A stretch of DNA of 64,000 nt, taken from Hoeflea sp. GTDB taxonomy: Bacteria > Pseudomonadota > Alphaproteobacteria > Rhizobiales > Rhizobiaceae. Location: positions 372,001 through 436,000 of the forward strand of contig NZ_NVXQ01000001.1 of assembly GCF_002733955.1 (NCBI RefSeq). Direction: 5' to 3'. The notes beneath the pieces are model-generated. The model did not search any database, had not been told where the DNA came from, and worked only from the letters and a program-made list of their open reading frames with translations. This document shows, piece by piece, positions 2,750 to 18,605 of this stretch (position 1 is the first letter of the stretch; each line of letters begins with the position of its first letter). The position numbers and the translations under genes are program-made.

Positions 2750-3451
2750 TCAGATCTTGGTGTGCATCTGGTAGCCCGGCGCAAAGGTCAGCCGAACTGA
2801 CGTGATCACCAGCCCCTTGTTCCAGGTGCTGCGGTCGATGACGAACAGGCCTTCGCCTTCCTTGCAGGCAAGGATCTCGGCTTCTCGCGGTCCGGCCGTT
2901 ATCGCCGAAAACGAGAAATCGCCGCCTTCGAACGGAATGTTGGCCACCAGCCATTCATTGGCGCTCTTGACGGTGAGATCGGCCGCCTCGATCCCGGGCA
3001 CCGCCGCCGGATTGATCCAGCGGTCGCCGAACACATAGGGCTTGCCGTCAGCCAGATGCAGCGTCACCAGGTGAATGAGCTTGATGCCCTGTTCGACCTG
3101 CATTCGCGCCTGGATACCCGACGGCGGCACCGCGCGTTCCTGGGTCAGAACTGTGTGGCGGTAGGTCTGGCCCTTGCCTTCGATCTCGTAGCGGATCACC
3201 GGAATGTCGAGCGTTGCCTTGCGCACCGGGTTGAGCGACACCCGGGTGCCTGCCTTGCGGCGGCGGTCGAGCAACCCGGATTCAGCCAGTGCGCGCAGCG
3301 CGCGGTTGACCGTGGCCCGGGCGCAGCCGAATTCGATCGCCAGTTCCGCCTCGTTCGGTATGAAGTCCCCCGGCTTCCATTCGCGGGCATTGATCCGGCG
3401 CAGCACCTCCGCCTGCACCGACTGCCAGCTGTTGAATTCTCCCCCGCTCAA
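2750..3451 (-). CDS. hutC: Histidine utilization repressor, GntR/HutC family
   Basis: Represses hut genes and is released by urocanate in characterised members. It has an N-terminal winged helix-turn-helix (residues about 5-70, with GDFIPNEAELAIEFGCARATVNRALRAL split over the recognition helix) and a C-terminal UTRA effector domain. I place the start at TTG 3451, which overlaps the hutF stop as TTGA and has GGAGAGG seven bases upstream. This gives 233 residues, the usual HutC size. The longer open frame back to 3595 lies inside hutF and looks non-coding. The arrangement hutF-hutC suggests autoregulation through the operator at 4838-4851. Confidence 0.9.
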   Translation of the reverse strand: MSGGEFNSWQSVQAEVLRRINAREWKPGDFIPNEAELAIEFGCARATVNRALRALAESGLLDRRRKAGTRVSLNPVRKATLDIPVIRYEIEGKGQTYRHTVLTQERAVPPSGIQARMQVEQGIKLIHLVTLHLADGKPYVFGDRWINPAAVPGIEAADLTVKSANEWLVANIPFEGGDFSFSAITAGPREAEILACKEGEGLFVIDRSTWNKGLVITSVRLTFAPGYQMHTKI

Positions 3452-4812
3452 ATGGCCTCTCCAAGCTCCTTCATCGTTCTCGCATAGGCCGAGACGATGG
3501 CCTCCCGTTTCACATGTTTGCCGCCCGTCACCATGTGACGCCCCGCCGACCAGACATCTCCTACCATGCGGTCGTCGCCGGCGAATATATAACAATCGAG
3601 AATGGTGTCGCCGCTTCTGCCGATCAGATCCACAGCATCTGCATTCAGCGCCATCATGTCGGCGAGCTTGCCCACGGCCAGCGCACCATTGTTGCGCGCC
3701 GACACGCTGGCCCCGCCCGCATTGATCGCGTCGAACAGCCGCCGTCCGGTGGATTTATCCGGTGTCGCCAGCGCCGCGCGCGAGTGATCGCGCAGGCGCT
3801 GTGAGTAGTCGAGAGTTCTCAGTTCCTCCGACAGCGAAATCCGGATGTTGGAATCCGAGCCAACCGCAATCGCACCGCCGTTGTCAAACCATCGCACGCC
3901 ATCAAAGATGCCGTCGCCGAGGCTGGATTCGGTAATCGGGCATAGCCCGGCCACCGCGCCGCTGCGGGCCAGGCCTTCGGTTTCGTGCGGCAGCATCTGG
4001 GTGCAATGGATAAAGCAATGCCGCGCATCAAGCTCCATCGTGTCGAACACCAGTTCCACCGGCCGCTTGCCATAAGCCGCATGGATTTCCTCGACCTCCG
4101 CGATCTGCTCGGCCAGATGCATGTGCAACGGATTGTCACCCGCCAGCCTGGCGTGATGGGCAAGGTCCTCGGGCGAAATCGCGCGCAGACTGTGAGGCGC
4201 GACGCCGATGCGGCTGTCTGAAGGGAGGTGGGCCAGAGCTTCCGCCGACTTCGCATGTAGCTCGGCATAGGCGTCGAACGTGTTGCCGAAGCGGATCTGC
4301 CCGGGACCCAGCGCGCGCTTGTCGCAGCCGCCATATTGATAATGCACAGGCAGTAGCGTCAGCCCCATGCCGGTGGTGGCGCTGGCCGCCGCGATCCGCT
4401 CGGCCATCTCGGCAAGATTGTGGTAAGCCACGCCGCCGGGCTGGTGGTGCAGATAGTGAAACTCGACATTGGCGGAATAGCCGGCCTCGAGCATTTCCAT
4501 CTGAACGAAGGCGGCGATCGCCTCGACATGTTGGGGCGTCAGCCGGTCGAGAAAGCGGAACATCAATTGCCGCCAGGTCCAGAACGAATCCGATGGGTCG
4601 GGGCCGCGTTTCTCGGTCAGTCCGGCCATGGCGCGCTGAAAAGCGTGGCTGTGGCAATTGGCCGGCGCGGGCAGAAGAACTCCGGTCCTGTAACCTTCAG
4701 CAGGGGTGTCCGGGTCAATGCTTTTGATCAGGCCGTCGGGGCTGATTTCGATCCGTACATTCTCGGCCCAGCCGCTTTCCAGCAACGCTTTCTCAGCCCA
4801 GACAATCGTCAT
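3448..4812 (-). CDS. hutF: Formimidoylglutamate deiminase
   Basis: Converts N-formimidoyl-L-glutamate to N-formyl-L-glutamate and ammonia, the step that defines the HutF-HutG branch of histidine degradation. The 454-residue protein is an amidohydrolase-superfamily TIM barrel with the metal-binding NCHSHAFQ motif (around residue 52), a HMHLAEQ segment (around 233) and the late aspartate in VGSDSNIRIS (around 315). It is the first gene of the leftward hutFC unit and starts 74 bp from hutI on the other strand. hutG lies in the opposite operon, so the complete two-step route to glutamate and formate is encoded here. Confidence 0.95.
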   Translation of the reverse strand: MTIVWAEKALLESGWAENVRIEISPDGLIKSIDPDTPAEGYRTGVLLPAPANCHSHAFQRAMAGLTEKRGPDPSDSFWTWRQLMFRFLDRLTPQHVEAIAAFVQMEMLEAGYSANVEFHYLHHQPGGVAYHNLAEMAERIAAASATTGMGLTLLPVHYQYGGCDKRALGPGQIRFGNTFDAYAELHAKSAEALAHLPSDSRIGVAPHSLRAISPEDLAHHARLAGDNPLHMHLAEQIAEVEEIHAAYGKRPVELVFDTMELDARHCFIHCTQMLPHETEGLARSGAVAGLCPITESSLGDGIFDGVRWFDNGGAIAVGSDSNIRISLSEELRTLDYSQRLRDHSRAALATPDKSTGRRLFDAINAGGASVSARNNGALAVGKLADMMALNADAVDLIGRSGDTILDCYIFAGDDRMVGDVWSAGRHMVTGGKHVKREAIVSAYARTMKELGEAI

Positions 4813-4825
4813 TGTGTCACGCCTC

Positions 4826-4855
4826 TTGACAGGTTTTTATGTATATACTTATAGT
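4826..4855 (+). promoter_or_regulatory. Candidate promoter of hutIHGU
   Basis: TTGACA at 4826-4831, an 18-base spacer and TATAGT at 4850-4855 match the sigma-70 consensus well. The transcription start would fall about 25 bp before the hutI ATG. The spacer contains the GTATATAC palindrome, so a bound repressor would block polymerase directly. Confidence 0.6.
4838..4851. promoter_or_regulatory. Candidate HutC operator
   Basis: GTATATAC at 4841-4848 is a perfect 8-bp palindrome inside an imperfect 14-bp one (TATGTATATACTTA). GntR/HutC proteins bind TGTATATACA-like sites in characterised bacteria, and this is the only such site between the divergent hutF and hutI. It overlaps both predicted promoters, so a single HutC dimer could shut off both operons. 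Confidence 0.65.
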
Positions 4856-4876
4856 CCAATAACACGGACATAACAA
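4848..4876 (-). promoter_or_regulatory. Candidate promoter of hutFC
   Basis: On the minus strand TTGTTA (4876-4871), a 17-base spacer and TATAAG (4853-4848) form a plausible sigma-70 promoter for hutFC. Its -10 box overlaps the -10 box of the hutI promoter and the edge of the GTATATAC operator. Confidence 0.5.
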
Positions 4877-4886
4877 CGGCGAAATC

Positions 4887-6080
4887 ATGCTTCTGATCAA
4901 CGCGACATTGGCGACCATGGATGGTTCGCCAGCTTACGGGCTGGTCGAGCAGGGGGCTGTGGCGATTCGCGACGGACGCATCGCCTGGGCTGGGCCTGCC
5001 GCTGAGCTGCCTGGTGAATTCAAGCTGGATGAAAGCATTGATCTGGAAGGCCGGCTGGTGACGCCGGCGCTGATTGATTGCCATACGCATGTCATTCACG
5101 GCGGCAACCGCGCCCGCGAATTCGAGATGCGGCTTGAAGGCGCGAGCTACGAGGAAGTCGCCCGCGCCGGCGGCGGCATCGTCTCCACCGTCGCCGCCAC
5201 CCGCGCCGCAACCCAAGAACAACTGCTCGCTCATGCCTTGCCCCGTGTCGACGCGATGATTGCCGAGGGCGTCTCGACCATCGAGATCAAGTCCGGCTAT
5301 GGCCTCGACATCGACAACGAGCTCAAGATGCTCCGCGCCGCCAGGGCTGTTGCCGAGAAACGTCCCGTCCTGATCCAAACCAGCTATCTTGGCGCCCACG
5401 CCGTTCCGCCCGAATACAAGGGCCGTCCTGACGCCTATATCGACGAAGTCTGCATCCCGGCACTCGAGGCAGCCCATGCCGAAGGCCTGGTCGATGCGGT
5501 TGACGGCTTCTGCGAGGGCATAGCCTTCACGCCGAGGCAGATTGCGCGGGTCTTCGACAAGGCGAGAGCGCTCGGCATTCCGGTCAAGCTGCATGCCGAG
5601 CAGCTCTCCAATCTCGGCGGCGCAAAGCTGGCTGCTGAGTATGACGCGCTGTCCGCCGACCATCTCGAATATGCCACGGCGGAAGATGCTGCAGCCATGG
5701 CGAAAGCCGGCAGCGTGGCAGTGATCCTGCCCGGCGCCTTTTACACCCTACGCGAAACCGCCGCGCCGCCGATTGACGCATTCCGCGAGGCCGGTGTGCC
5801 GATGGCGGTCGCAACCGATTGCAATCCCGGCTCGTCGCCGATGTCCTCGCTGCTTCTGAGCATGAACATGGCCTGCACCCTGTTCCGGATGACACCCGAA
5901 GAAGCGCTCGCCGGCGTGACCCGCAACGCCGCACGCGCGCTCGGCCTCGAGGATACAGGCCAGATCAAGCCGGGCCTGCGCGCCGACCTCGCCGTCTGGG
6001 ATGTCGAGCACCCGGCGGAACTGGCCTACCGCATTGGTTTCAACCCGCTCTGGAAGCGGATTTTTGGAGGCGCATTGTGA
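4887..6080 (+). CDS. hutI: Imidazolonepropionase
   Basis: Hydrolyses 4-imidazolone-5-propanoate to N-formimidoyl-L-glutamate, the third step of histidine degradation. The protein has 397 residues, near the family norm, with an amidohydrolase barrel: metal-binding [10 protein letters not shown] (around residue 66), [11 protein letters not shown] loop, HAEQLS (around 236), SADHLEYA and the metal-binding aspartate in [11 protein letters not shown] (around 312). It is the first gene of the rightward hut operon, and its stop overlaps the hutH GTG start. Confidence 0.95.
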
Positions 6081-7618
6081 CGCTGACGCTCACCCCCGGT
6101 CGGGCAACGCTTGACCAGCTCGAACAGATCTGGCGCAGCGGCGTTGCCGTGGTTCTCGATGACAGCGCCCTGCCGGGCATCGAAGCGGCGGCCGAGTTGG
6201 TCCGCACGGCGGCTGCCGGTGACGAGGCGGTCTATGGCGTCAACACCGGATTCGGCAAGCTCGCCAGCGTGCGCATCAAGCCCGGCGACACCGCGCAGCT
6301 GCAGCGCAACCTGATCCTGTCGCATTGCTGCGGCGTCGGCGAGCCTCTCGATGTCGCCACCACAAGGCTGATGATGGCACTCAAGCTGCTCTCCGCTGGG
6401 CGTGGCGCATCCGGCATCACCTGGAAGACGCTCTCTGTGATCCAGAACATGCTGCGCGAAGGCGTCACTCCGGTGATCCCGAGCCAAGGCTCGGTTGGCG
6501 CCTCGGGCGATCTCGCGCCGCTGGCCCATATGGCGGCAGCGATGATCGGCGAAGGCGAAGCCATTTTTGGCGGCGAGCGCATGCCGGCTGCCGAAGCGCT
6601 GGCCAAGGCCGGGATCGAACCGGCCGTGCTGGCCCCGAAGGAAGGTCTCGGCCTGATCAACGGCACCCAATTCTCCACCGCTTGTGCGCTGGTCGGCTAT
6701 TTCGGCGCCATCCGCAATCTCGAGGCGAGCGTGGTCTCGTCCTGCCTCTCGACCGACGCGATCATGGGCTCCACCGCGCCGCTCGAAGCAGGCATCCACG
6801 CCTTCCGCGGCCATCGCGGCCAGATCGACATGGCCCGCGCCATGCGCGCCGTGATGCAGGGCTCTGTGATCCGCGAAAGCCACCGCGATGGGGACGCCCG
6901 CGTGCAGGATCCCTATTGCATCCGCTGCCAGCCGCAGGTCGCAGGCGCCGCGCTCGATCTGCTGCGCCAGGCCGGCCAGACGCTGGAGATCGAAGCCAAT
7001 GCCGTGTCCGACAACCCGCTGGTGCTGGTCGCCGAGGGCAAGATCGTCTCGGGCGGCAATTTCCACGCCGAGCCTGTGGCCTTCGCCGCCGACCAGATCG
7101 CCATTGCCATCGCCGAGATTGGCGCCATCGCTCAGCGCCGCGTCGCGCTCATGGTCGACCCAACTCTGTCCTTCGATCTGCCGCCGTTCCTGACCCCGAA
7201 ACCGGGGTTGAATTCCGGCCTAATGATCGCAGAAGTCACCACCGCGGCGCTGATGAGCGAGAACAAGCACCTGGCCAATCCCTGCTCGACCGACTCCACG
7301 CCCACCTCGGCCAATCAGGAAGACCACGTCTCCATGGCCGCCCATGGCGCGCGGCGATTGAAGCGGATGAACGACAATCTCAACGTCATCATCGGCGTCG
7401 AACTGCTCTGTGCAGCCCAAGGCGTCGAGTTCCGCGCGCCGCTCACCACCAGCCCGGCACTGCAGGGCGCAGTTGACCTGATCCGCTCCGAGATCGCCAC
7501 TCTGACCGATGACCGTTTCATGGCGGGCGACCTCGCCACCGCGGCTGCCATGGTCGCAGATGGCAAGGTCCAGTCGCAATGCGCGGTTGCCTCGCTGCTC
7601 GAAGGGGAGGCGGCATGA
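6077..7618 (+). CDS. hutH: Histidine ammonia-lyase
   Basis: Removes ammonia from L-histidine to give urocanate, the first committed step. I chose GTG 6077, which overlaps the hutI stop by four bases and has GGAGG just upstream. This gives 513 residues, typical of HutH. The electrophilic MIO cofactor forms from Ala142-Ser143-Gly144 in [15 protein letters not shown], exactly where the family has it. [11 protein letters not shown] near the N-terminus and the [13 protein letters not shown] segment are also family hallmarks. The longer open frame upstream runs through hutI and is not used. Confidence 0.96.
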
Positions 7619-8415
7619 CCCCGGTCGAGGTCAAACGCGGTAATAGCCCGCTGGTGCTCGGACTGCCGCACACCGGAACCTATGTGCCCGAAGACATTTT
7701 CGCGCGGCTGACGCCACTGGGCCGGACACTGGGCGACACCGACTGGCATGTCGACCGGCTTTATGATGGCCTGCTCGACGGCGTCACCACCGTCCGCGCC
7801 AATTTCCATCGCTATGTCATCGACGCCAACCGCGACCCCTCCGGCGCCAGCCTCTATCCCGGCCAGAACACCACCGGGCTGGTGCCGATGACCAATTTCG
7901 ACGGCGAGCCGCTGTGGCTGAAAGAGCCGGATGAAGCAGAGATCGAGGCGCGCCGGATTGCCTGGCACGCTCCCTATCACGCAGCGCTGGAAGCCGAACT
8001 CGAGCGCGTGCGCGACGCCCACGGCGTCGCCGTCCTTTACGATTGCCATTCGATCCGGTCCAACATCCCGTTCCTGTTCGACGGCACGTTGCCTGATTTC
8101 AACATCGGCACCAACAATGGCGAAACCTGCGCCCCGGTGATCGAGGCCGTTGTGGCCGGCATCTGCGCAGGCGCGGAAGGCTATTCCAGCGTGCTCAACG
8201 GCCGTTTCAAGGGCGGCTGGACCACGCGGCATTACGGGCGTGGGGCCGAAAACATGCACGCCATCCAGATGGAGCTGGCGCAAAGCACGCATCTGGCTAC
8301 CGAGGAGCTTCCCTTCGCCTATGACGAGGCCAAGGCGGAGCGGCTGCGCGTGCACCTCAGGACAATTCTGAATTCAGTTGCTGACCTTGCAGCATCATTG
8401 GGAGGCCAATCATGA
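7615..8415 (+). CDS. hutG: N-formylglutamate amidohydrolase (deformylase)
   Basis: Hydrolyses N-formylglutamate to glutamate and formate, the last step of the HutF route. The 266-residue protein fits PF05013: [14 protein letters not shown] near the N-terminus, [11 protein letters not shown] (around residue 42), [12 protein letters not shown] (around 73) and the metal site LYDCHSIRS (around 142). The ATG at 7615 overlaps the hutH stop by four bases and follows GGGGAGG. The gene itself ends in a four-base overlap with hutU. It is not the arginase-type formimidoylglutamase that some bacteria also call HutG. Confidence 0.92.
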
Positions 8416-10094
8416 CCAATCCGAGACACAACCAGCGCGACATCTATCCGCCGACCGGCACGGAGATCACGGCCAAGAGCTGGCTCACCGAAGCCCCGAT
8501 GCGGATGCTGATGAACAACCTGCATCCCGATGTGGCGGAAAACCCGCATGAGCTGGTGGTCTATGGCGGCATCGGGCGGGCAGCACGCACCTGGAAGGAC
8601 TTCGACATGATTGTCGACAGTCTCAAGAAGCTCAACGACGACGAGACGCTGGTGGTGCAGTCGGGCAAGCCGGTCGCCGTTGTGCGCACCCATGTCGATG
8701 CGCCCCGGGTGCTGATCGCGAACTCCAACCTGGTGCCGCACTGGGCCAACTGGGACCATTTCAACGAACTCGACAAGCGCGGCCTTGCCATGTACGGCCA
8801 GATGACCGCCGGATCCTGGATCTATATCGGCACGCAAGGCATCGTGCAGGGCACCTTCGAGACCTTCGCCGAAGCCGGTCGCCAGCATTATGGCGGCGAT
8901 CTCAAGGGCAAGTGGATCCTGACCGGTGGACTTGGCGGCATGGGCGGCGCCCAGCCGCTGGCGGCCGTGATGGCCGGCGCCTGCTGCCTGGCCGTCGAAT
9001 GCGACGAGACCCGCATCGATTTCCGCCTGCGCACCCGCTACGTCGATGAAAAAGCCAAGACGCTTGATGAAGCCCTGGCCATGATCGACAAGTGGACCAA
9101 GGCCGGCGAGGCCAAATCCGTGGGCCTGCTCGGCAATGCGGCCGATGTCTTCGTCGAGCTCGCCGCACGCATGAAGGCAGGAGGCTCGCGCCCCGACATC
9201 GTCACCGACCAGACCTCGGCCCATGATCCGCTGCACGGCTACCTGCCGCAGGGCTGGAGCGTCGCCGAATGGCGCGAGAAGCAGGAAAGCGACCCCAAGG
9301 CTGTCGAGAAAGCCGCCCGCGCCAGCATGAAAGTCCATGTCGCCGCAATGGTCGATTTCTGGAACGCCGGTGTGCCGACACTCGATTACGGCAACAACAT
9401 CCGCCAGGTCGCGCAGGACGAGGGTCTGGAAAACGCCTTCGATTTTCCGGGTTTCGTGCCCGCCTATATCCGGCCGTTGTTTTGCCGCGGCATCGGTCCG
9501 TTCCGCTGGTGCGCGCTCTCGGGCGATCCCGAAGACATCTACAAGACCGACGCCAAGATGAAGCAGCTGTTCCCGGACAACACCCACCTTCACAACTGGC
9601 TCGACATGGCCCGCGAACGTATCGCCTTCCAGGGCCTGCCGGCGCGCATCTGCTGGATCGGCCTCGGCGACCGCCACCGTGCCGGCCTCGCCTTCAACGA
9701 GATGGTTGCTTCGGGTGAACTCAAGGCGCCGATCGTCATTGGCCGCGACCATCTCGATTCAGGCTCGGTTGCCTCGCCCAACCGCGAGACCGAAGCCATG
9801 AAGGATGGCTCCGATGCCGTCAGCGACTGGCCGCTGCTCAATGCTCTGGTCAACACCGCTTCCGGCGCCACCTGGGTCTCGATCCACCATGGCGGTGGCG
9901 TCGGCATGGGCTTCTCCCAGCATTCCGGCATGGTCGTTGTCGCCGACGGCACCGATGCGGCTGCCAAGCGGCTCGAGCGGGTGCTGTGGAACGATCCGGC
10001 TTCCGGCGTCTGGCGTCATGCCGATGCCGGCTACGAAATCGCGCTCGACTGTGCGCGAGAGCACGGGCTCAATCTGCCCGGCATATTGGGATGA
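8412..10094 (+). CDS. hutU: Urocanate hydratase
   Basis: Converts urocanate to imidazolonepropionate using tightly bound NAD+. The 560-residue length is usual. Seen in order: [18 protein letters not shown] near the N-terminus, the glycine-rich NAD-binding stretch [14 protein letters not shown] (around residue 174), [12 protein letters not shown] (around 274), the catalytic cysteine in [11 protein letters not shown] (around 358-368 here) and [17 protein letters not shown] (around 495). It completes the hutIHGU set, and a TRAP transporter gene follows 37 bp downstream on the same strand. Confidence 0.96.
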
Positions 10095-10131
10095 AAACAA
10101 CAAGGTAAACTCGAAACAGAGAGGAACTGAC

Positions 10132-11220
10132 ATGCAGAGAAGAAAATTCCTGAAGGCCGGCGTCGCCGGAGCAGCCGCAGCTGCAACACTTGCAACACCG
10201 GCCATCGCACAGGACAAGCGCCAGTGGAAGATGGTCACCGCCTGGCCGAAGAACCTGCCCGGCCCGGGTGTTGCTGCCCAGCTTCTGGCTGACCGCATCA
10301 CCACGCTGTCGGGCGGCCGCATCGAGGTCAAGCTCTATGCCGCCGGTGAAATCGTCCCCGGTCCCGGTGTGTTCGACGCCGTCTCCGAGGGCACAGCCGA
10401 ACTCTACCATGCCGTTCCCGCCTATTGGGGCTCCAAGTCCAAGGGCATCCTGCTGTTCGGCTCCCAGCCTTTCGGCCTGCGCGCCGACGAGCAGTTCGGC
10501 TGGATGCAGCACGGTGGTGGCCAGGCGCTCTACGACGAGATGTATGGCCGCTTCGGCGTCAAGCCGTTCCTGTGCGGCAATTCGGGTCCGCAGTGGGCCG
10601 GCTGGTTCCGCAACGAGATCAATTCGGTCGAGGATCTCAAGGGGCTGAAATTCCGCACCACCGGTCTCGCTTCCGAGATGGCCACCAAGATGGGCATGGC
10701 CGCCGAAGCCATGGGCGGGCCACCGATGTTCCAGGCGCTGCAGACCGGCGCACTCGATGCCGGCGAGTTCATCGGACCGTGGACCGACTCCGCGCTCGGC
10801 TTCTACCAGGTCGCCAAGAACTACTACTGGCCCGGCGTCGGCGAGCCGTCTTCGGCCGAAGAATGCGGCGTCAATGCCAAGGCCTATGAGGAACTGCCTG
10901 CAGATCTGCAGCAGGTCGTCTCGCTCGCCTGCGAAAGCCTCTACAACCCGGTCTGGACCGAATACACCACCAAGCATGCTCAATCATTGAAGACACTTGT
11001 CTCCGAGCATGGCGTCAATGTCCGCAAGCTGCCTGACGATGTCATCGTCGCCATGGGCAAGGCGGCCGAAGAGGTTGTTGACGAGTTGCGCCAGAACGAT
11101 GATGAGCTGGTCAAGCGCATCACCGAAAGCTACATTTCCTACCGCGATCTGGTGGGCGGCTACATGACCTATGCCGACAACGGCCAGATGAACGCCCGCG
11201 CTTCCGTGATGGGCTACTGA
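10132..11220 (+). CDS. TRAP transporter solute-binding protein, Tat-exported, linked to hut
   Basis: Periplasmic DctP-type receptor of a TRAP importer. The 362-residue protein opens with a twin-arginine signal (MQRRKFLKAG, then an alanine-rich core and a PAIAQ cleavage region), so it is probably exported folded by Tat. The mature part has the DctP fold with WFRNEINSVEDLKGLKFR around residue 160, the segment that normally carries the carboxylate-binding arginine. It starts 37 bp after hutU on the same strand with GAGAGGA upstream and no visible terminator between, so it is probably transcribed with hut. Histidine, urocanate or another imidazole acid is the inferred ligand; the sequence does not prove it. 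Confidence 0.88.
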   Translation: MQRRKFLKAGVAGAAAAATLATPAIAQDKRQWKMVTAWPKNLPGPGVAAQLLADRITTLSGGRIEVKLYAAGEIVPGPGVFDAVSEGTAELYHAVPAYWGSKSKGILLFGSQPFGLRADEQFGWMQHGGGQALYDEMYGRFGVKPFLCGNSGPQWAGWFRNEINSVEDLKGLKFRTTGLASEMATKMGMAAEAMGGPPMFQALQTGALDAGEFIGPWTDSALGFYQVAKNYYWPGVGEPSSAEECGVNAKAYEELPADLQQVVSLACESLYNPVWTEYTTKHAQSLKTLVSEHGVNVRKLPDDVIVAMGKAAEEVVDELRQNDDELVKRITESYISYRDLVGGYMTYADNGQMNARASVMGY

Positions 11221-11233
11221 CGGCGAAATTCCG

Positions 11234-11261
11234 TCCGGCGCGGGGTGATTCTCGCGCCGGA
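11234..11261 (+). other. Intercistronic hairpin after the TRAP binding-protein gene
   Basis: TCCGGCGCG at 11234-11242 and CGCGCCGGA at 11253-11261 form a perfect 9-bp stem with a 10-base loop. It sits between the binding-protein stop and the small permease. It could protect the upstream transcript or cut read-through; no T-run follows. Confidence 0.6.
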
Positions 11262-11286
11262 TACTTTACCCACAAGAGGGACTGGC

Positions 11287-11799
11287 ATGCAGCGTCTGGC
11301 CGATATTCTCGACGGCATCAGCCGGGCCACGGCAAGCGTGATCCGCTGGCTGGCTCTGTTGATGGTGCTGGTGCAGTTCGCCATCGTGGTGGGGCGCTAC
11401 GTCTTTGGCGTCAACATCATCGCCGTACAGGAAAGCGTGCTCTATATGCATGCGACGCTGTTCATGCTGGGCGCCGCCTACACGCTGCTGGTCGACAAGC
11501 ATGTCCGCGTCGACGTGTTCTATGCCAAGGCGAGCGAGGCCACCCGCCGCCGCATCGACATTTTCGGACACCTTTTCCTGCTGATCCCGTCGATGCTGGT
11601 GCTGCTCTACTGGTCCTGGCCGTCGGTGCGCAATTCCTGGAAAATTCTCGAAGGCCCGATTTCGGTCGGCGGCATCGAAGCCGTGTTCCTGCTCAAATCG
11701 CTGATCCCCGCCTTCTGCATCCTTCTGGTGCTGCAATCGCTTTCATTGTTGATCCGGCTGCTTTTGCCTGACACTGCCGCGCCAAGGGCCGACGCATGA
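11287..11799 (+). CDS. TRAP transporter small permease (DctQ)
   Basis: Four-helix inner-membrane subunit that pairs with the large permease. The ATG at 11287 is preferred over the GTG at 11245 because AGAGGG lies seven bases before it and the GTG lies in the loop of the intercistronic hairpin. This gives 170 residues with hydrophobic segments near 16-38, 48-70, 95-115 and 130-155, and the family-type GRYVFGVNIIAVQE around residue 34. Its stop overlaps the start of the large permease by four bases. Confidence 0.85.
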   Translation: MQRLADILDGISRATASVIRWLALLMVLVQFAIVVGRYVFGVNIIAVQESVLYMHATLFMLGAAYTLLVDKHVRVDVFYAKASEATRRRIDIFGHLFLLIPSMLVLLYWSWPSVRNSWKILEGPISVGGIEAVFLLKSLIPAFCILLVLQSLSLLIRLLLPDTAAPRADA

Positions 11800-13346
11800 G
11801 CCAGTATCTCGATCTCGTCATGTTCGCCGCCCTGATGGGCGCCATTCTGCTCGGCTTCCCGGTCTCCTTTTCAATCGCCGGTGTGGCGATAGTTTTTGCC
11901 TATCTCGGCTGGGCGCTGGGCGCGATGGACATCACGCTGATGGGCGCCACCGGACAGCGCGTCTTCGGTCTGATTTCCAACCAGGTGCTGATCGCCATTC
12001 CGCTGTTCGTGCTGATGGGGGCGGTGCTGGAGAAGAGCCGCATTGCCGAGGAGCTGCTCGACACCACGGGCCGGCTGTTCGGGCAATTGCGCGGCGGGCT
12101 TGGCATTTCCGTGGTGCTGGTCGGTGCGCTGCTTGCCGCCTCCACCGGCATTGTCGGCGCCACCGTTGTTGCTATGGGCATGATCGCACTGCCCACCATG
12201 CTGCGCTCGGGCTATGATCCGCGCGTTGCCTCCGGCATTGTCTGCACCGCCGGCACTCTGGGCCAGATCATCCCGCCCTCGACGCTGCTGATCATTCTCG
12301 CCGACGTCATGTCCAATGCCTATCAGCAGGCGCAGTACGAGCAGGGCAAGTTCTCCGTCGAGGCGCTGTCGGTCGGTCAGTTCTTCGCCGCGGCAATCGT
12401 TCCCGGGCTGACGCTGGTGCTGCTCTACCTGATCTATATCCTGCTTCGCGGCCTGATCCGTCCGAACGACATGCCGCCGGCCACGCTCGATACGCCAAAG
12501 CCCGACCGGCGCGAGGTCGTTTCGGCCATCGTGCCGCCGGTGCTGCTGATCATCGCCGTTCTTGGCGCCATCCTCGGCGGCGTCGCCACCCCCACCGAAG
12601 CCGCTTCCGTCGGCGCAATCGGCGCACTGCTGATGGCTGGCATCAGAACCGGCACCAATCCGAAGATCATCCTCGGCGGGGCTGCAGCGCTGATCGCACT
12701 GGGCGTGCTTGCCGGTCTGTTTCCGGTGCGGCTGCAGCGCAACGATCTGGGTGCCGTGTCGCTGACGGCAGGCGGGTTTTACATTGTCCTCACCATCATC
12801 GGCGCGGTGGCGATCCTGGCGGCCCTGCGCGGAACCCTGCGCACCCGCACCCTGCATGCGGCGGTCGATTCAACACTGACCATGACCGCCATGATCTTCG
12901 CCACCATTTTGGCGGCGGGCATGTTCTCGCTGGTCTTCATCGGGCTTGGTGGTGAGGAGCGCGTGGCGCATATTCTGGCCAGCATGCCCGGCGGTCCGAT
13001 GGGCGCGCTGCTGTTTTGCATGGCCTTCGTCTTCGTGCTCGGTTTCTTCCTCGATTTCGTCGAGATCTCGGTAATCGTGCTGCCCTTGATCGCACCGCCG
13101 CTGATCATGATGGGGCATGACCCGATCTGGCTCGGCGTGCTGCTTGCCATCAACCTGCAGACCAGCTTCCTGACGCCACCCTTCGGCTTCTCGCTGTTCT
13201 ACCTGCGCGGTGCTGCGCCACCCGAAGTCACCACCGGCCAGATCTATGCCGGCGTGGTGCCGTTCATCGGGCTGCAGATCATCGGCATCTCGCTGGTCTG
13301 GCTGTTGCCGCAACTGGCCACCTGGCTTCCAGACGTGATTTTCTAG
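11796..13346 (+). CDS. TRAP transporter large permease (DctM)
   Basis: Ion-coupled translocation subunit of the hut-linked TRAP importer. At 516 residues it is longer than the usual 425-residue DctM. The extra length lies in the middle, where additional hydrophobic segments (about residues 285-345) follow the conserved ATPTEAASVGA motif. The N-terminal half has the family motifs FPVSFSIAGVA, GGLGISVVLVGALLAASTGIVGA and GTLGQIIPPSTLLI. The C-terminal half has QTSFLTPPFGFSLFYLRG (around residue 450). Long DctM variants of this kind exist. Nothing marks it as broken. Confidence 0.9.
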   Translation: MSQYLDLVMFAALMGAILLGFPVSFSIAGVAIVFAYLGWALGAMDITLMGATGQRVFGLISNQVLIAIPLFVLMGAVLEKSRIAEELLDTTGRLFGQLRGGLGISVVLVGALLAASTGIVGATVVAMGMIALPTMLRSGYDPRVASGIVCTAGTLGQIIPPSTLLIILADVMSNAYQQAQYEQGKFSVEALSVGQFFAAAIVPGLTLVLLYLIYILLRGLIRPNDMPPATLDTPKPDRREVVSAIVPPVLLIIAVLGAILGGVATPTEAASVGAIGALLMAGIRTGTNPKIILGGAAALIALGVLAGLFPVRLQRNDLGAVSLTAGGFYIVLTIIGAVAILAALRGTLRTRTLHAAVDSTLTMTAMIFATILAAGMFSLVFIGLGGEERVAHILASMPGGPMGALLFCMAFVFVLGFFLDFVEISVIVLPLIAPPLIMMGHDPIWLGVLLAINLQTSFLTPPFGFSLFYLRGAAPPEVTTGQIYAGVVPFIGLQIIGISLVWLLPQLATWLPDVIF

Positions 13347-13806: not shown

Positions 13807-14841
13807 ATGAACAAGGGAACCGTCCTTTCCACAGCCTTCATTTGGCTGGCGTCATTGACCATGATCGCAGCGACATCGACGACCGCGCTGTCGCAGGAAT
13901 TCAATTTGCGCATGCAGACGCATTACGCGCCGGAAACCGTTTCGGGCAAGCTGGCCCAGGGCTTCATCGACAATGTCGAAACCATGTCCGGTGGCCGGGT
14001 CAAGATCGAGATGTTCTGGTCATCCGCCGTGGTCGCGACCGTTGAAGGCTTCGATGCTGCCGCAACCGGCATCATCGATGGCGAGATGCATGGTGGCGCC
14101 TATCAGACCGGCAAGAACCCGGCCTTCCAGTTCGTCGGCGACCCGATGGGCGGCTATGACAACCCCTATGAGCTCTACAGCTTCTTCTACAATGGCGGTG
14201 GCCGTGAAGCGGCGAACGAACTTTACGAAGCCTACAACATGCACCTGGTCGGCTGGTGGGCCGGTGGCCAGGAAGCCATGTCGTCCTCCAAGCCGTTGCG
14301 TGGCCCGGAAGACTTGAAGGACTGGAAGTTCCGTTCGCCTCCTGGTCTTGAGACCGAGATTTTCGCCGAACTCGGCGCATCGCCGATCGTGATGGATTTC
14401 ACTGAAATCTTCACCGCTCTGGAAACCGGCATCATCGACGGCGCCGACGCATCAAGCCTGGCCAACAATGTCGGGCTGGGGCTTTACGACATCGTCAAGC
14501 ATGCAACGTTCCCCGGCTTCCACTCGATGCCGGTTGACCACGTGACCTTCAATCTCGATGTCTGGAACAGCTTCCCTGACGATATCAAGGCAATCATCGA
14601 CACGGCAACGCAGGCCTTGGCCCTGCAGACCACAATGACCTTCGATATCGCCAACCTTGAAGCGGCCACCAAGCTCAAGAGCGAAGGCGTGACCCTCTAC
14701 GACTGGAGCCCGGAAGACCGCGCCTCGTTCCGCGCCGGCGCCATGCGTGCCTGGGATGGTTGGGCGGAGAAGACACCTGAAGCCAAGGCGCTTGTGGAAG
14801 CCCATCATGACTTCCTGCGTCGTACCGGCAAGATCGAGTAG
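13807..14841 (+). CDS. TRAP transporter solute-binding protein (DctP family)
   Basis: Periplasmic receptor of a second TRAP importer, 344 residues. It has a Sec signal (residues 1-30, ending TTALSQ) and a DctP fold with ALETGIIDGADASS (around residue 205) and EDLKDWKFRSPPGLETEIF (around 172), where the conserved carboxylate-binding arginine is expected. The ATG at 13807 follows AGGAGGAG. The same frame is open back to 13651 but that stretch is the untranslated leader. The ligand is not evident; the genes for the two permeases follow directly. Confidence 0.87.
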   Translation: MNKGTVLSTAFIWLASLTMIAATSTTALSQEFNLRMQTHYAPETVSGKLAQGFIDNVETMSGGRVKIEMFWSSAVVATVEGFDAAATGIIDGEMHGGAYQTGKNPAFQFVGDPMGGYDNPYELYSFFYNGGGREAANELYEAYNMHLVGWWAGGQEAMSSSKPLRGPEDLKDWKFRSPPGLETEIFAELGASPIVMDFTEIFTALETGIIDGADASSLANNVGLGLYDIVKHATFPGFHSMPVDHVTFNLDVWNSFPDDIKAIIDTATQALALQTTMTFDIANLEAATKLKSEGVTLYDWSPEDRASFRAGAMRAWDGWAEKTPEAKALVEAHHDFLRRTGKIE

Positions 14842-14871
14842 TCTGTACAAGGCGCTTTCAAATGACGAGAG

Positions 14872-14892
14872 GCGGGCTCCATCGGAGCCCGC
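14872..14892 (+). other. Intercistronic hairpin after the TRAP binding-protein gene
   Basis: GCGGGCTCC (14872-14880) and GGAGCCCGC (14884-14892) make a perfect 9-bp stem with a three-base loop, followed by TTGTTC. It lies between the binding-protein stop and the small permease and may act as a partial terminator or an mRNA-stabilising end. Confidence 0.65.
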
Positions 14893-14934
14893 TTGTTCGC
14901 CTCAGGCATTGAAAACAGGGCAGAGGTCTCAAGC

Positions 14935-15747
14935 ATGAAAGATCGCGGGGAAAGCGTGTGGTTGGGTCCGCTTCGCCAGCCTATGCGCAAGCTGATGATT
15001 GCCAGCATCATTGCGACTGGAGCCCTGGCGCTCTTCCTGATAGCCGGCACCTTGTTTTTCGGCACCGGCATCGGCCTGAAACAGTTTCTGTCACCCGGCG
15101 AGACGACGTCTGTTGCCATCACCATGATCGCAGGCACCATCGCCTTGCTGTCGGCCAGCATTTACCTCTCCGACACGCGCGGCATGATCGAATCGAAATC
15201 AGAAGGTTTTTTCGACGTTGTCAGCCTGATTTGCTCACGCCTGTCGATGATTGCAACGGCCCTGATCGTGCTTGTGATGTTCTACGAGGTGGTCTCGCGC
15301 TACGTCTTCACCAAGCCAACGCTGTGGGCCAATGAGCTGTCGCTCTGGATCGCGGGGTTCGTCTTCCTGCTTGCCGGGCTCTACGCCATGCAGCAGCGGA
15401 GCCACATCCGGATCTATGTGGTCTATGACCTGTTCCCGCGTTGGCTGCAAAAGCTGTCCGATGTCGTGTCGGTGCTTCTGATCTGGGCCTTTACCTTCAT
15501 GCTGATCTGGGGTGGCTACAATGAATCCCGCGACAAGATCCTGCGCTGGGAAACATTCGGCACTGCCTGGGATCCGCCGATCCCGGCCACCATCAAGCCC
15601 GCCATTCTGTTCATCATCCTTCTTGTCGCGATCCAGGCGCTTTCCAACCTGATTGCCGACTGGAACAAGATGCCGGAACACCATTCGCCCATGGATGAAA
15701 TCGACGAGAGCGAAATCGAAATCATTCGCCGCAGCATCAAGGACTAG
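14935..15747 (+). CDS. TRAP transporter small permease, long form with extra N-terminal helices
   Basis: DctQ-type subunit of 270 residues, about 100 more than a plain DctQ. Residues 20-85 add two hydrophobic segments before the usual four-helix domain, which begins near residue 100 and carries FYEVVSRYVFTKPTLWANEL (around 117-136), the standard DctQ motif. The start at 14935 is supported by AGAGG upstream; the open frame extends to 14893 without a better site. The large permease begins four bases after the stop. Confidence 0.82.
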   Translation: MKDRGESVWLGPLRQPMRKLMIASIIATGALALFLIAGTLFFGTGIGLKQFLSPGETTSVAITMIAGTIALLSASIYLSDTRGMIESKSEGFFDVVSLICSRLSMIATALIVLVMFYEVVSRYVFTKPTLWANELSLWIAGFVFLLAGLYAMQQRSHIRIYVVYDLFPRWLQKLSDVVSVLLIWAFTFMLIWGGYNESRDKILRWETFGTAWDPPIPATIKPAILFIILLVAIQALSNLIADWNKMPEHHSPMDEIDESEIEIIRRSIKD

Positions 15748-15751
15748 TTGG

Positions 15752-17350
15752 ATGGATATTGGCACACTTTCGCTGTTGCTGTTGATTGGTCTTTTCGTGC
15801 TCCTGGCAATGGGCATGCCGTTGGGCTTTGCCTCCGCTGCGCTGGCTGGTGCGGTGCTGCTGATGAAGTTCGGGCCGGATCTGTTGTTCAGGGATTTCGG
15901 GCGCGGCCCGTTTGCGGTCCTTGGCCAGGCGATCTATCGCCAGATGACCAATTACGTGCTGATATCAGTGCCGCTGTTCATCTTCATGGCCGCCTTGCTC
16001 GAGCGAAGTGGCATTGCCAAGGACATGTATTCGTCACTCAATGTCTGGCTTTCGCGGACCCGCGGCGGTATCGCCATCGTCACCTCGGTGATGGCGGTGA
16101 TCATGGCCGCCATGTCCGGCATCATTGGTGGTGAAGTCGTGTTGCTGGGCTTGATTGCCCTGCCGCAGATGTTGCGCCTGGGCTACAACCAGAACCTGGC
16201 CATTGGCACCATCTGTGCCAGCGGATCGCTGGGAACCATGATCCCGCCCTCGATCGTCCTCATTTTCTATGGCCTCATCACCGAAACCTCGATCAAGGCG
16301 CTGTTTACGGCCTCCTTCCTGCCCGGCTTGATGCTGGCGTCGTTCTTCATCATCTACATCGTCATCCGCACCCAGTTGAACCCCGAACAGGCGCCGCTTC
16401 CCGAACCTGATCCTGATGATCCCGAGGGCCGCGAGAAGCTGGCCTTGTTTGGCGCCTTTCTCACGATCATGGTGATGGGCGCTACGGCCTTGCTGCTTGT
16501 AAGGGCCGTGTTCCAGACCGTCACCGGCGGCAATGCGGTGCTGGAAGGCGTTGATCCGATCCCGCTCGGCATGGTGACACACATTCCCTATTTTCTCGGA
16601 ATTCTTGTCGCCGGGGCCCTGGCGCTCCAGTTCGGTTTCGGCCGTGAACGGGTCTTGACCGGCTGGGCCATGGGCAAGGGACTGGTAGCCCCGATCGTTG
16701 TCATCGGTGTCGTGCTCGGGTCGATCTATGGCGGTATTACCGGCATCACCGAAGCCGCCGCAATGGGTGTCATTGCGGTGTTTCTGATCAGCCTTGCCCG
16801 CGGTGAGATGAGCTTTGACGTGGTCTGGGATTCACTGATGCGGACGATGAAATCGACCGGCACGATCATCTGGGTCACGATCGGCGCTGCAGCCCTTGCC
16901 GCGGCCTATACTCTGGTCGGCGGACCGACCTATGTCGCCAACCTGATCATCGGTGCCGAATTGCCGACGATGGGCGTCATCCTGCTGATGATGCTGATCT
17001 TCCTCATCATGGGCATGTTCATGGACTGGGTTGGCATCGTGCTCTTGATCATGCCGGTGTTTCTGCCCATCGTGCAGCGCCTGCCGGTGGAGGAAATCGG
17101 CTTTCTAGGTTCGATCGATCCGAAATATGTGGCGATCTGGTTTGGCGTGGTATTCTGCATGAACATGCAGGTGTCGTTCCTGTCCCCGCCTTTCGGACCG
17201 GCGGCGTTTTACCTCAAGTCGGTGGCGCCGGCCCACATCACCCTGATCGACATTTTCCGCGGTTTCCTGCCCTTCATCGGCCTGCAACTGCTGGCATTGG
17301 CGACCTTGCTGGTGTTCCCGCAGATCGTCACGGTATTCATCGCCGGCTGA
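15752..17350 (+). CDS. TRAP transporter large permease (DctM), long form
   Basis: Translocation subunit of 532 residues for the second TRAP importer. Family motifs include GMPLGFASAALAGAV near the start, TRGGIAIVTSVMAVIMAAMS (around 95), GSLGTMIPPSIVLI, GGITGITEAAAMGV (around 330) and MNMQVSFLSPPFGPAAFYL (around 470). Like the hut-linked DctM it has an extended middle with extra hydrophobic segments. The ATG at 15752 follows the DctQ stop directly. The gene ends three bases from the convergent DUF1989 gene. Confidence 0.9.
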   Translation: MDIGTLSLLLLIGLFVLLAMGMPLGFASAALAGAVLLMKFGPDLLFRDFGRGPFAVLGQAIYRQMTNYVLISVPLFIFMAALLERSGIAKDMYSSLNVWLSRTRGGIAIVTSVMAVIMAAMSGIIGGEVVLLGLIALPQMLRLGYNQNLAIGTICASGSLGTMIPPSIVLIFYGLITETSIKALFTASFLPGLMLASFFIIYIVIRTQLNPEQAPLPEPDPDDPEGREKLALFGAFLTIMVMGATALLLVRAVFQTVTGGNAVLEGVDPIPLGMVTHIPYFLGILVAGALALQFGFGRERVLTGWAMGKGLVAPIVVIGVVLGSIYGGITGITEAAAMGVIAVFLISLARGEMSFDVVWDSLMRTMKSTGTIIWVTIGAAALAAAYTLVGGPTYVANLIIGAELPTMGVILLMMLIFLIMGMFMDWVGIVLLIMPVFLPIVQRLPVEEIGFLGSIDPKYVAIWFGVVFCMNMQVSFLSPPFGPAAFYLKSVAPAHITLIDIFRGFLPFIGLQLLALATLLVFPQIVTVFIAG

Positions 17351-17353
17351 TTT

Positions 17354-17944
17354 TCAGGCGGCATCCTCGATCCGGTAGTCGATCGGCTTGTAGCGGAAAT
17401 TGTTCGACTGTCCGGCGGAGCAGGCGGTCATGGCGACGATCAGGTCCATTTCGGCCCGGAACACGGTCTTCTGTCCCGGCTTGCTCTTCGGCGGCAGCAC
17501 CTTGATCTCGCCGCTGTCGCTGTCGACCGCCACATGCATGAACACGTTGAATGCGATCGGGATTGCGTCCGGTCCAATGCCATAGGGCGCCAACGCATTT
17601 TCCAGATTTCCCTGGCAACCATGATGCGGGTCCTTGTCCCCATAGATGATGCTGAACGTGTCGCGCGAGCACGGGGTCAGGCTGAAGTCGTGCCGGCCCA
17701 CTTCGTCCTCGACGATCCTGAGCATCGGCACCGACCGGTTCGAGTACAGGATGTCACCTGTGGTCAGGAACATCCGCCCGGCATAGTCGATCGAACGGCC
17801 GGAGGAGAGGTACTCGCGTGTATCGTCCTTGTTGTAGGCAACGAGATCGGAGACTTGTTCGCCTTCCGGATCGACAACCGTCAGCAGCTGGCCTTTCTTC
17901 AATTCGAACGCTGTGCCGCTGCGAGGGGGAATGCGATTGGTCAT
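17354..17944 (-). CDS. DUF1989 / urea carboxylase-associated family protein
   Basis: A 196-residue cytoplasmic protein of the family found beside urea/guanidine carboxylases. Two characterised members form carboxyguanidine deiminase (CgdAB), so a role in a guanidino or amidino compound is a reasonable inference. Family landmarks are GEQVSDLVAYNKDD (around residue 28), a cysteine- and histidine-rich centre with TPCSRD and HHGCQGNLENAL (around 90-118), FNVFMHVAVD (around 132) and the late MTACSAGQSNN (around 173). Its start lies one base after the stop of the YqcI/YcgG gene, so the two are one transcript. No urea carboxylase, allophanate hydrolase or guanidine carboxylase gene is in the window, which is unusual for the family. 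Confidence 0.85.
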   Translation of the reverse strand: MTNRIPPRSGTAFELKKGQLLTVVDPEGEQVSDLVAYNKDDTREYLSSGRSIDYAGRMFLTTGDILYSNRSVPMLRIVEDEVGRHDFSLTPCSRDTFSIIYGDKDPHHGCQGNLENALAPYGIGPDAIPIAFNVFMHVAVDSDSGEIKVLPPKSKPGQKTVFRAEMDLIVAMTACSAGQSNNFRYKPIDYRIEDAA

Positions 17945-17945
17945 C

Positions 17946-18605
17946 TCAGGCTACTTCCTTGTGTGCAAAAGGGCATTTCCATTCGGGATCGACCGCGCGT
18001 CCGCTGTATTGACGGGCCTCCGAGGCTTCGCCGTGGTCATTGAGCATGGGGTTGATACTGCCGGCCAATGCCTCATCGCGCTTGCGGATAATCTCTTTCA
18101 TCTTGTCGAAGCGGCCATCGGCGCGCAGCTTCTCGAACTGCAGATGCGAATTGAACACCAGAGCCGGTTTTTCGAAACGCCGTGCCGGACGCGACGCGTT
18201 GGGGTGCAGGCCGATTACAAAGAACGGTTCGCCGCCAATCGAGAGCGAGAAGTGAGGCGACTGCGGATCGGGGTCAACAGCCTCGTTCCAGGACTGGCCA
18301 CTGACAACGTCAAGATTGTGCAGGCACTGCAGCCGGTTCCACAACGCTTTCTCGAAAGCCTCTTCATCAAGCCCGTCGGGCCCATCGAAAATTACCACGA
18401 ACGAGCGCACGATCGGGCTCTGATGGTCGAGCTTGTCGCTGAAATCACGAAGCGCCCGGTGGATCTCCACATCGTCGGTTGCGCTGTCGATCTTGCCGAC
18501 CGGCAGCACCGAGAGGGCATCACGGGCCAGCGCGGATTTTGCGCCGACACAGGGAAACTCGGCGTTCTGGATAAATTGCTGAAACGACTTGGAAATGTCG
18601 GTCAT
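17946..18605 (-). CDS. YqcI/YcgG family protein (GntA-like heme N-hydroxylase family)
   Basis: A 219-residue protein of PF08892. The characterised relative GntA is a heme-dependent enzyme that N-hydroxylates a guanidino compound in guanitoxin synthesis. Family marks visible are FPCVGAKSAL near residue 20, PFFVIGLHPNASRPARRF (around 127-144), LVFNSHLQFEKLR, GSINPMLNDHGEASEARQYS (around 185-204) and the terminal CPF. Start ATG 18605 is my choice; a GTG at 18620 is possible because neither has an ideal ribosome site. It leads the DUF1989 gene with a one-base gap. Substrate and reaction in this organism are unknown; oxidation of a guanidino or amino group is an inference from the family. Confidence 0.78.
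   Translation of the reverse strand: MTDISKSFQQFIQNAEFPCVGAKSALARDALSVLPVGKIDSATDDVEIHRALRDFSDKLDHQSPIVRSFVVIFDGPDGLDEEAFEKALWNRLQCLHNLDVVSGQSWNEAVDPDPQSPHFSLSIGGEPFFVIGLHPNASRPARRFEKPALVFNSHLQFEKLRADGRFDKMKEIIRKRDEALAGSINPMLNDHGEASEARQYSGRAVDPEWKCPFAHKEVA

Follow-up and report, generated by a model that had tools for sequence, protein, structure and literature searches.

A conserved YqcI–DUF1989 gene pair of Hoeflea points to a probably undescribed small pathway for guanidine-type molecules

We analysed a stretch of 64,000 nucleotides from Hoeflea sp. (assembly GCF_002733955.1, contig NZ_NVXQ01000001.1, positions 372,001 to 436,000 of the forward strand), referred to here as the window, with emphasis on two neighbouring genes that encode a YqcI/YcgG-family protein and a DUF1989 protein:

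17946..18605, minus strand, YqcI/YcgG gene, first of the pair, 219 amino acids (aa), PF08892 207 bits
17354..17944, minus strand, DUF1989 gene, second of the pair, 196 aa, PF09347 192 bits

The stop codon of YqcI has its last base at 17946 and the ATG of the DUF1989 gene lies at 17944, leaving the single base 17945 between them. A first-pass annotation of the window had described these genes and their strands, this one-base gap, and a gap of three bases between the DUF1989 gene and a tripartite ATP-independent periplasmic (TRAP) transporter gene, all of which is exact by coordinates. The YqcI proteins of the window and of Hoeflea halophila share 98% identity. Comparison of the window pair with five Hoeflea loci, Pseudohoeflea and Oricola gave ratios of nonsynonymous to synonymous substitution rates (dN/dS) of 0.02–0.11, computable in six of the seven YqcI comparisons (one being saturated) and in all seven for DUF1989; both genes are under purifying selection.

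The distribution of the two families was evaluated in genomes drawn evenly, not at random; related genomes are not independent of each other, and the chromosome sampling covered Pseudomonadota only. A PF08892 gene was present in 22 of 398 sampled Pseudomonadota genomes. A subfamily profile built from 31 pair-linked DUF1989 proteins retrieved 22 genes with at least 315 bits (315–350), found in exactly the same 22 genomes and all directly adjoining YqcI, while the next-best DUF1989 protein of the sample reached only 148.5 bits. In a class-level sample, 13 of 289 genomes contained PF08892 and nine of these carried the pair; at E 1e-60 or better, the DUF1989 subfamily was present in nine genomes of this sample, each time beside YqcI, and in no others. 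Three of the four remaining PF08892 genomes belong to one genus with a divergent YqcI (38–48 bits), two of these copies being embedded in frames 6502 and 8199 aa long, and the fourth (L023) is a weak match missed by the YqcI profile built here. Five pair genomes are common to both samples, giving a union of 26. Linkage of the pair in relatives, on which the first-pass annotation had made its proposal depend, holds in ten of ten loci taken as close relatives as well as in the 22 of 22 sampled pair genomes.

The gap between YqcI and DUF1989 was 10 bases or fewer, overlaps included, in 41 of 44 loci, counted from whichever start codon lay closest to the upstream stop, a rule that favours short gaps and that gave no start in one of 45 loci. 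Across 50 extended loci, DUF1989 was the sole widely recurring neighbour family (43 loci); the others among the 22 largest families were confined to Hoeflea or to at most six loci at varying distances. Crude gene picking missed YqcI in five of these 50 loci, four of which (L007, L063, L070 and L076) are pairs and one of which (L087) holds only a weak YqcI relative. In 43 bacterial pairs, the identities of the partner proteins covaried (r = 0.85; 30 shuffles gave a mean of 0.02), which is what joint inheritance predicts and what species relatedness would give as well. Together, these data indicate that YqcI and DUF1989 almost certainly form a functional module.

The window YqcI exceeds both the curated cut-off of PF08892 (27 bits) and that of the NCBIfam GntA equivalog model NF041366 (280 bits, cut-off 145). 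An AlphaFold2 model from an 11-row alignment was of moderate confidence, with a mean predicted local distance difference test score (pLDDT) of 74, falling below 50 at the C-terminus (about residues 190–219). In a Foldseek search of the PDB with this model, AglA (9ub3) was the only confident match (template modelling (TM) score 0.76, E 1.4e-7), the next unrelated chain following at E 0.27. A profile alignment with AglA (E 1.5e-5) equated Cys19 with Cys44, Arg142 with Arg166, and Phe129/Phe157 with Phe152/Phe182, described in the available portion of PMC12866846 as heme ligand, propionate-binding residue and clamp, respectively. Cys19, Arg142, Phe129 and Phe157 are kept in 44, 44, 41 and 44 of 44 paired bacterial rows, where L018 and L072 are one gene counted twice, as they are in the row counts of both residue tables and both trees. 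As far as the available portions of PMC12866846 and PMC10849742 report, characterised YqcI-family members oxidise or N-hydroxylate guanidines, and ChmN hydroxylates free arginine with a general ferredoxin and reductase (PMC10849742). The YqcI protein of the pair resembles AglA, GntA and ChmN in predicted fold, heme cysteine, propionate arginine and clamp phenylalanines, and differs from them in two substrate-contact positions (see below), in having no natural-product cluster and in its invariable association with DUF1989 in the genome samples. Sequence and modelled fold agree in predicting a cysteine-ligated heme N-hydroxylase, which we consider likely.

The window DUF1989 protein stays below the cut-offs of the UAAP1 and UAAP2 models (115/285 and 80/206 bits). 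It differs from UAAP1/UAAP2 (CgdAB) in being a single DUF1989 protein and in belonging to a separate clade (at least 315 bits against at most 148.5 bits on the subfamily profile). Its AlphaFold2 model, likewise from an 11-row alignment and of moderate confidence (mean pLDDT 76), had 3siy, 3oru and 3di4 as its only confident PDB matches, the best being 3siy (E 2.5e-16, TM score 0.80). All 46 paired rows, including those from archaea, have Asp33, Cys92 and Cys110; Cys175 is found in 45 of them and is missing only from one truncated frame. These four residues align with D198, C263, C279 and C343 of trimethylamine N-oxide (TMAO) demethylase (Tdm), whose metal-site roles are taken from the available portion of PMC12560246. 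L115 retains all four in its UAAP2 row and none in its UAAP1 row; the similar rows of L123, L128 and L134 also have none. His107, aligned to H276 of Tdm, is histidine in just 40 of 46 paired rows and hence not required, and the place of D346 is taken by alanine or other residues. The DUF1989 protein is thus like Tdm in its DUF1989 domain, zinc cysteines and aspartate, and unlike it in having no GcvT domain (78/1100 bits on the NCBIfam TMAO demethylase model) and in not conserving the proposed iron ligands. We predict it to be a zinc-site hydrolase.

In the known pathway, as given in the available portions of PMC12508155, PMC11410670 and PMC11271267, guanidine is carboxylated in an ATP-dependent step and then deiminated by CgdAB, a DUF1989 protein. 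No urea/guanidine carboxylase (TIGR02712) over the cut-off was found in this genome, the best hit being a partial match of 573/1304 bits. The carboxylase is present in four of the 22 pair genomes, and we therefore rejected a dependence of the pair on this pathway; the other 18 have none over the cut-off, so that adjacency of the pair without a urea carboxylase, raised in the first-pass annotation as a matter to search for, is the common situation. The earlier observation that neither urea carboxylase nor allophanate hydrolase lies near the pair is also correct: the allophanate hydrolase of this genome (733 bits) is on a separate contig, C26. On the contig with allophanate hydrolase there is a second, unpaired DUF1989 gene (L088 4693–5862, 16370–17050; G000:C26:20450–22084), together with an isochorismatase-family hydrolase, a 2-oxoglutarate-Fe(II) (2OG-Fe(II)) oxygenase and an amidohydrolase.

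N-hydroxylation lowers the basicity of guanidines. Because the constant partner of DUF1989 belongs to a guanidine N-hydroxylase family and the carboxylase is mostly absent, we propose N-hydroxylation as the activating step. In an O2-dependent reaction, YqcI would hydroxylate a small guanidino or amidino compound on one of its nitrogens, with electrons supplied by general cellular ferredoxin and reductase; guanidine itself, alkylguanidines, agmatine and amino acids of the arginine type are candidate substrates. DUF1989 would then hydrolyse the N-hydroxyguanidine, freeing ammonia or hydroxylamine. In this scheme, the inert guanidine would become open to hydrolysis through N-hydroxylation, which would replace the ATP- and biotin-dependent carboxylation that precedes CgdAB. 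The proposal shares with the carboxylase pathway a DUF1989 zinc-site protein acting after an activating step, and differs from it in that the activating gene would encode a heme oxygenase and not a biotin carboxylase. That DUF1989 acts on the YqcI product seems to us somewhat more probable than that it does not, and that it does so by hydrolytic deimination is at best an even proposition. Joint occurrence, adjacency, purifying selection, kept catalytic residues, matching folds and the absence of a carboxylase here support the module; further support comes from two other haloarchaeal plasmids in which the partner of YqcI is a hydrolase of the isochorismatase family, to which guanylurea hydrolase GuuH belongs according to the available portion of PMC9800807. 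On balance, one obligate, self-contained two-gene module for N-hydroxylation and subsequent hydrolysis of a guanidino compound is, judged from sequences and models, a reading for which we see equal chances of being right or wrong. The first-pass annotation had suggested such an oxidise-then-process unit without carboxylase, fed by the TRAP transporter; the two-gene unit has strong comparative support from co-occurrence, haloarchaeal coupling, residues and folds, and the transporter supply does not stand (see below).

Sixteen haloarchaeal plasmids were among the 40 YqcI records listed, and ten of the 16 neighbourhoods were inspected. The partner of YqcI was DUF1989 in two of them, sulfotransferase plus adenylyl-sulfate kinase in five and an overlapping isochorismatase-type hydrolase in two; one had no obvious partner. 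Plasmids of Halorussus and Halomarina have the reversed gene order, with DUF1989 upstream of YqcI, and two more haloarchaeal plasmid records show a reversed pair by coordinates alone. The 44 bacterial pair rows cluster together in the DUF1989 tree (support 100/96), and the two archaeal partners lie elsewhere in it, grouped with an unpaired protein (98/93), their exact place being unsure because long branches meet there. The YqcI tree places the archaeal partners within another branch that has unpaired members (99/97). From the separate branches in both trees and the opposite gene orders, we conclude that the coupling probably arose at least twice, in bacteria and in haloarchaea. The oxygenase-plus-hydrolase plan perhaps arose a third time with an isochorismatase-type hydrolase: on plasmids of Natrinema and Halomontanus (L095 3986–5391; L096 3986–5445), YqcI overlaps the gene of such a hydrolase by four bases. 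GuuH and DUF1989 belong to unrelated hydrolase fold families, and the haloarchaeal likeness to GuuH is at family level only. The fuller claim of an O2-dependent, ATP-free guanidine deimination by N-hydroxylation and a dedicated DUF1989 subfamily, invented at least twice, is tentative, and we would rate it as somewhat short of even. The five haloarchaeal plasmids with YqcI beside sulfotransferase and adenylyl-sulfate kinase (L090, L091, L092, L093 and L136) raise the question of a candidate N-hydroxylation plus sulfation cassette.

Relatives of the window YqcI were also present on 20 plasmid records, 14 of them with DUF1989 directly downstream. These plasmid pairs were determined by coordinates, with seven neighbourhoods plus that of Deinococcus inspected gene by gene, and come from Sphingomonadaceae, Skermanella, Comamonadaceae, Hymenobacter, Chryseobacterium and Deinococcus, thus including Bacteroidota and Deinococcota. 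Their DUF1989 proteins are 52–65% identical to that of the window, the next record having 37% (best 40 of 513 records). Of the other six records, those of one Rahnella and two Streptomyces plasmids were inspected and have no DUF1989 beside YqcI; two Pseudoalteromonas records and one Natronococcus record lie outside the neighbourhood inspection. Of 90 pattern matches in viral_contigs, none was a relative by tblastn, giving no phage-borne copies in that set. On a Hymenobacter volaticus plasmid (L047 6662–7147), the DUF1989 frame is short (about 160 aa) and unannotated in PLSDB, next to an intact YqcI. Thioclava and Leisingera plasmids (L097 4385–7318; L099 4344–7335) carry an Lrp regulator divergent from YqcI, a cupin and an amino acid permease. 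A GntA-class YqcI on a Rahnella sikkimica plasmid (NZ_CP019065.1, L051 5980–11262) is accompanied by a short-chain dehydrogenase/reductase (SDR), an orphan, a 2Fe-2S protein, a LysE exporter, a B3/4 protein (the family of canavanyl-tRNA editing CtdA) and a MOSC protein; this cluster looks like a maker and exporter of an N-hydroxylated arginine mimic with self-protection.

Several observations weigh against an obligate pair acting on guanidines. One genome (G421, loci L046 and L079) carries a second YqcI copy of the same class, L079, without DUF1989, and such copies were also found in the inspected neighbourhoods of one Rahnella and two Streptomyces plasmids; strict pairing is further disturbed in G045, where the YqcI frame is interrupted by a stop. 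Among the control genomes, Haloferax volcanii gave a match to the YqcI family only, and Caulobacter one to DUF1989 only. A third control, Bacillus subtilis, has matches to both, and its two genes, ycgG and ycgI, presumably lie close together. No transporter, regulator or reductase is conserved beside the pair in the 50 extended loci. Control by a guanidine riboswitch was rejected: 33 loci, including the unpaired L051, gave no Rfam guanidine family at the gathering score and a tRNA as the sole match. Finally, the AglA substrate contacts Gln177 and Arg179 are replaced in the paired rows by Asn152 (44/44) and His154 (43/44), whereas 14 other YqcI rows have Gln in 11 and Arg in 11 at these places. 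Since the heme and clamp residues are kept and these two are not, YqcI probably shares AglA-type chemistry and differs in the rest of its substrate, which may therefore not be arginine-like, or not a guanidine at all.

This last replacement is what speaks for a non-guanidino substrate of the pair, e.g. an amidine, amine or heterocycle, which we regard as unlikely given the retained clamp of Phe129 and Phe157 and the guanidine oxidation reported for characterised family members in the sources cited above. The relationship with Tdm suggests another course, in which YqcI N-oxidises its substrate and DUF1989 rearranges or dealkylates the product, cleaving an N-O or N-C bond and leaving the guanidine unhydrolysed: Tdm, whose substrate is an N-oxide, has a related DUF1989 domain (profile E 3.5e-23) with the four aligned metal-site residues described above. 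The varying residues at the proposed iron ligands, the missing GcvT domain and the low NCBIfam score make this course rather unlikely. Biosynthesis in place of catabolism, with YqcI making an N-hydroxy compound for secretion or signalling and DUF1989 as a clean-up enzyme that removes any surplus or a by-product, would fit the biosynthetic roles of characterised YqcI proteins and the company of YqcI on the Rahnella plasmid (LysE exporter, B3/4 editing-type and MOSC proteins), but no gene for an exporter, a ligase or another tailoring function keeps a fixed place beside the pair, and we consider this improbable. The automatic NCBI name, guanitoxin biosynthesis GntA, derives its appeal from the NF041366 score; however, DUF1989 is the constant partner, in unrelated soil, plant and water bacteria, and no biosynthetic neighbours recur in the 50 extended loci. 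A gnt-cluster setting was rejected on the recurrence of DUF1989 only in these loci, the other gnt genes not having been searched genome-wide. A guanitoxin-type role is scarcely credible to us, and the name on pair proteins is probably a misleading over-annotation.

The substrate supply for which the first-pass annotation had considered the neighbouring transporter, while calling the link only positional, concerns three genes outside the module:

13807..14841, plus strand, TRAP solute-binding protein DctP, PF03480 161 bits
about 14935..15747, plus strand, TRAP small permease DctQ, PF04290 83 bits (start codon a choice, as the frame stays open farther upstream)
15752..17350, plus strand, TRAP large permease DctM, PF06808 228 bits

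The DctM gene converges on the pair, its stop ending at 17350, three bases from the end of DUF1989 at 17354, and it occupies the same place in Hoeflea halophila (L008). Closeness in these two loci is what favours a transporter that feeds the pair. The operon lies on the opposite strand, however, and does not stay beside the pair across genomes: it abuts it only in the window and L008, a different, hut-linked TRAP DctM takes its place in four other Hoeflea loci (L002–L005), and no DctM is among the recurring neighbours of pair loci outside Hoeflea. With the neighbour not conserved and two different TRAPs within the Hoeflea loci, a functional link was rejected; feeding by this transporter is very improbable, and its position beside the pair is accidental. 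Elsewhere in the window (3448–13346), histidine-utilisation genes including urocanate hydratase (8412–10094) are followed by another TRAP operon (10129–13346).

We found no paper treating the YqcI/YcgG and DUF1989 families together, in a search that most subscription journals lay outside. As the first-pass annotation had supposed in naming the pair a candidate for an undescribed pathway, the module is real and probably undescribed, and it suggests that guanidine-type molecules are handled by a small pathway not yet described. Guanidine is important to cells, as riboswitches show. Known routes for guanidine comprise, in the available portions of the literature, the carboxylase route, a nickel guanidinase and one methylguanidine route. 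Consisting of just two small proteins, the module is directly testable. If the proposal of N-hydroxylation followed by DUF1989 hydrolysis is true, the inert guanidine group could be activated by a second means, N-hydroxylation, which would be a new principle; two subfamilies so far uncharacterised would gain a function, and the automatic neurotoxin-pathway annotation of ordinary soil, plant and water bacteria would be corrected.

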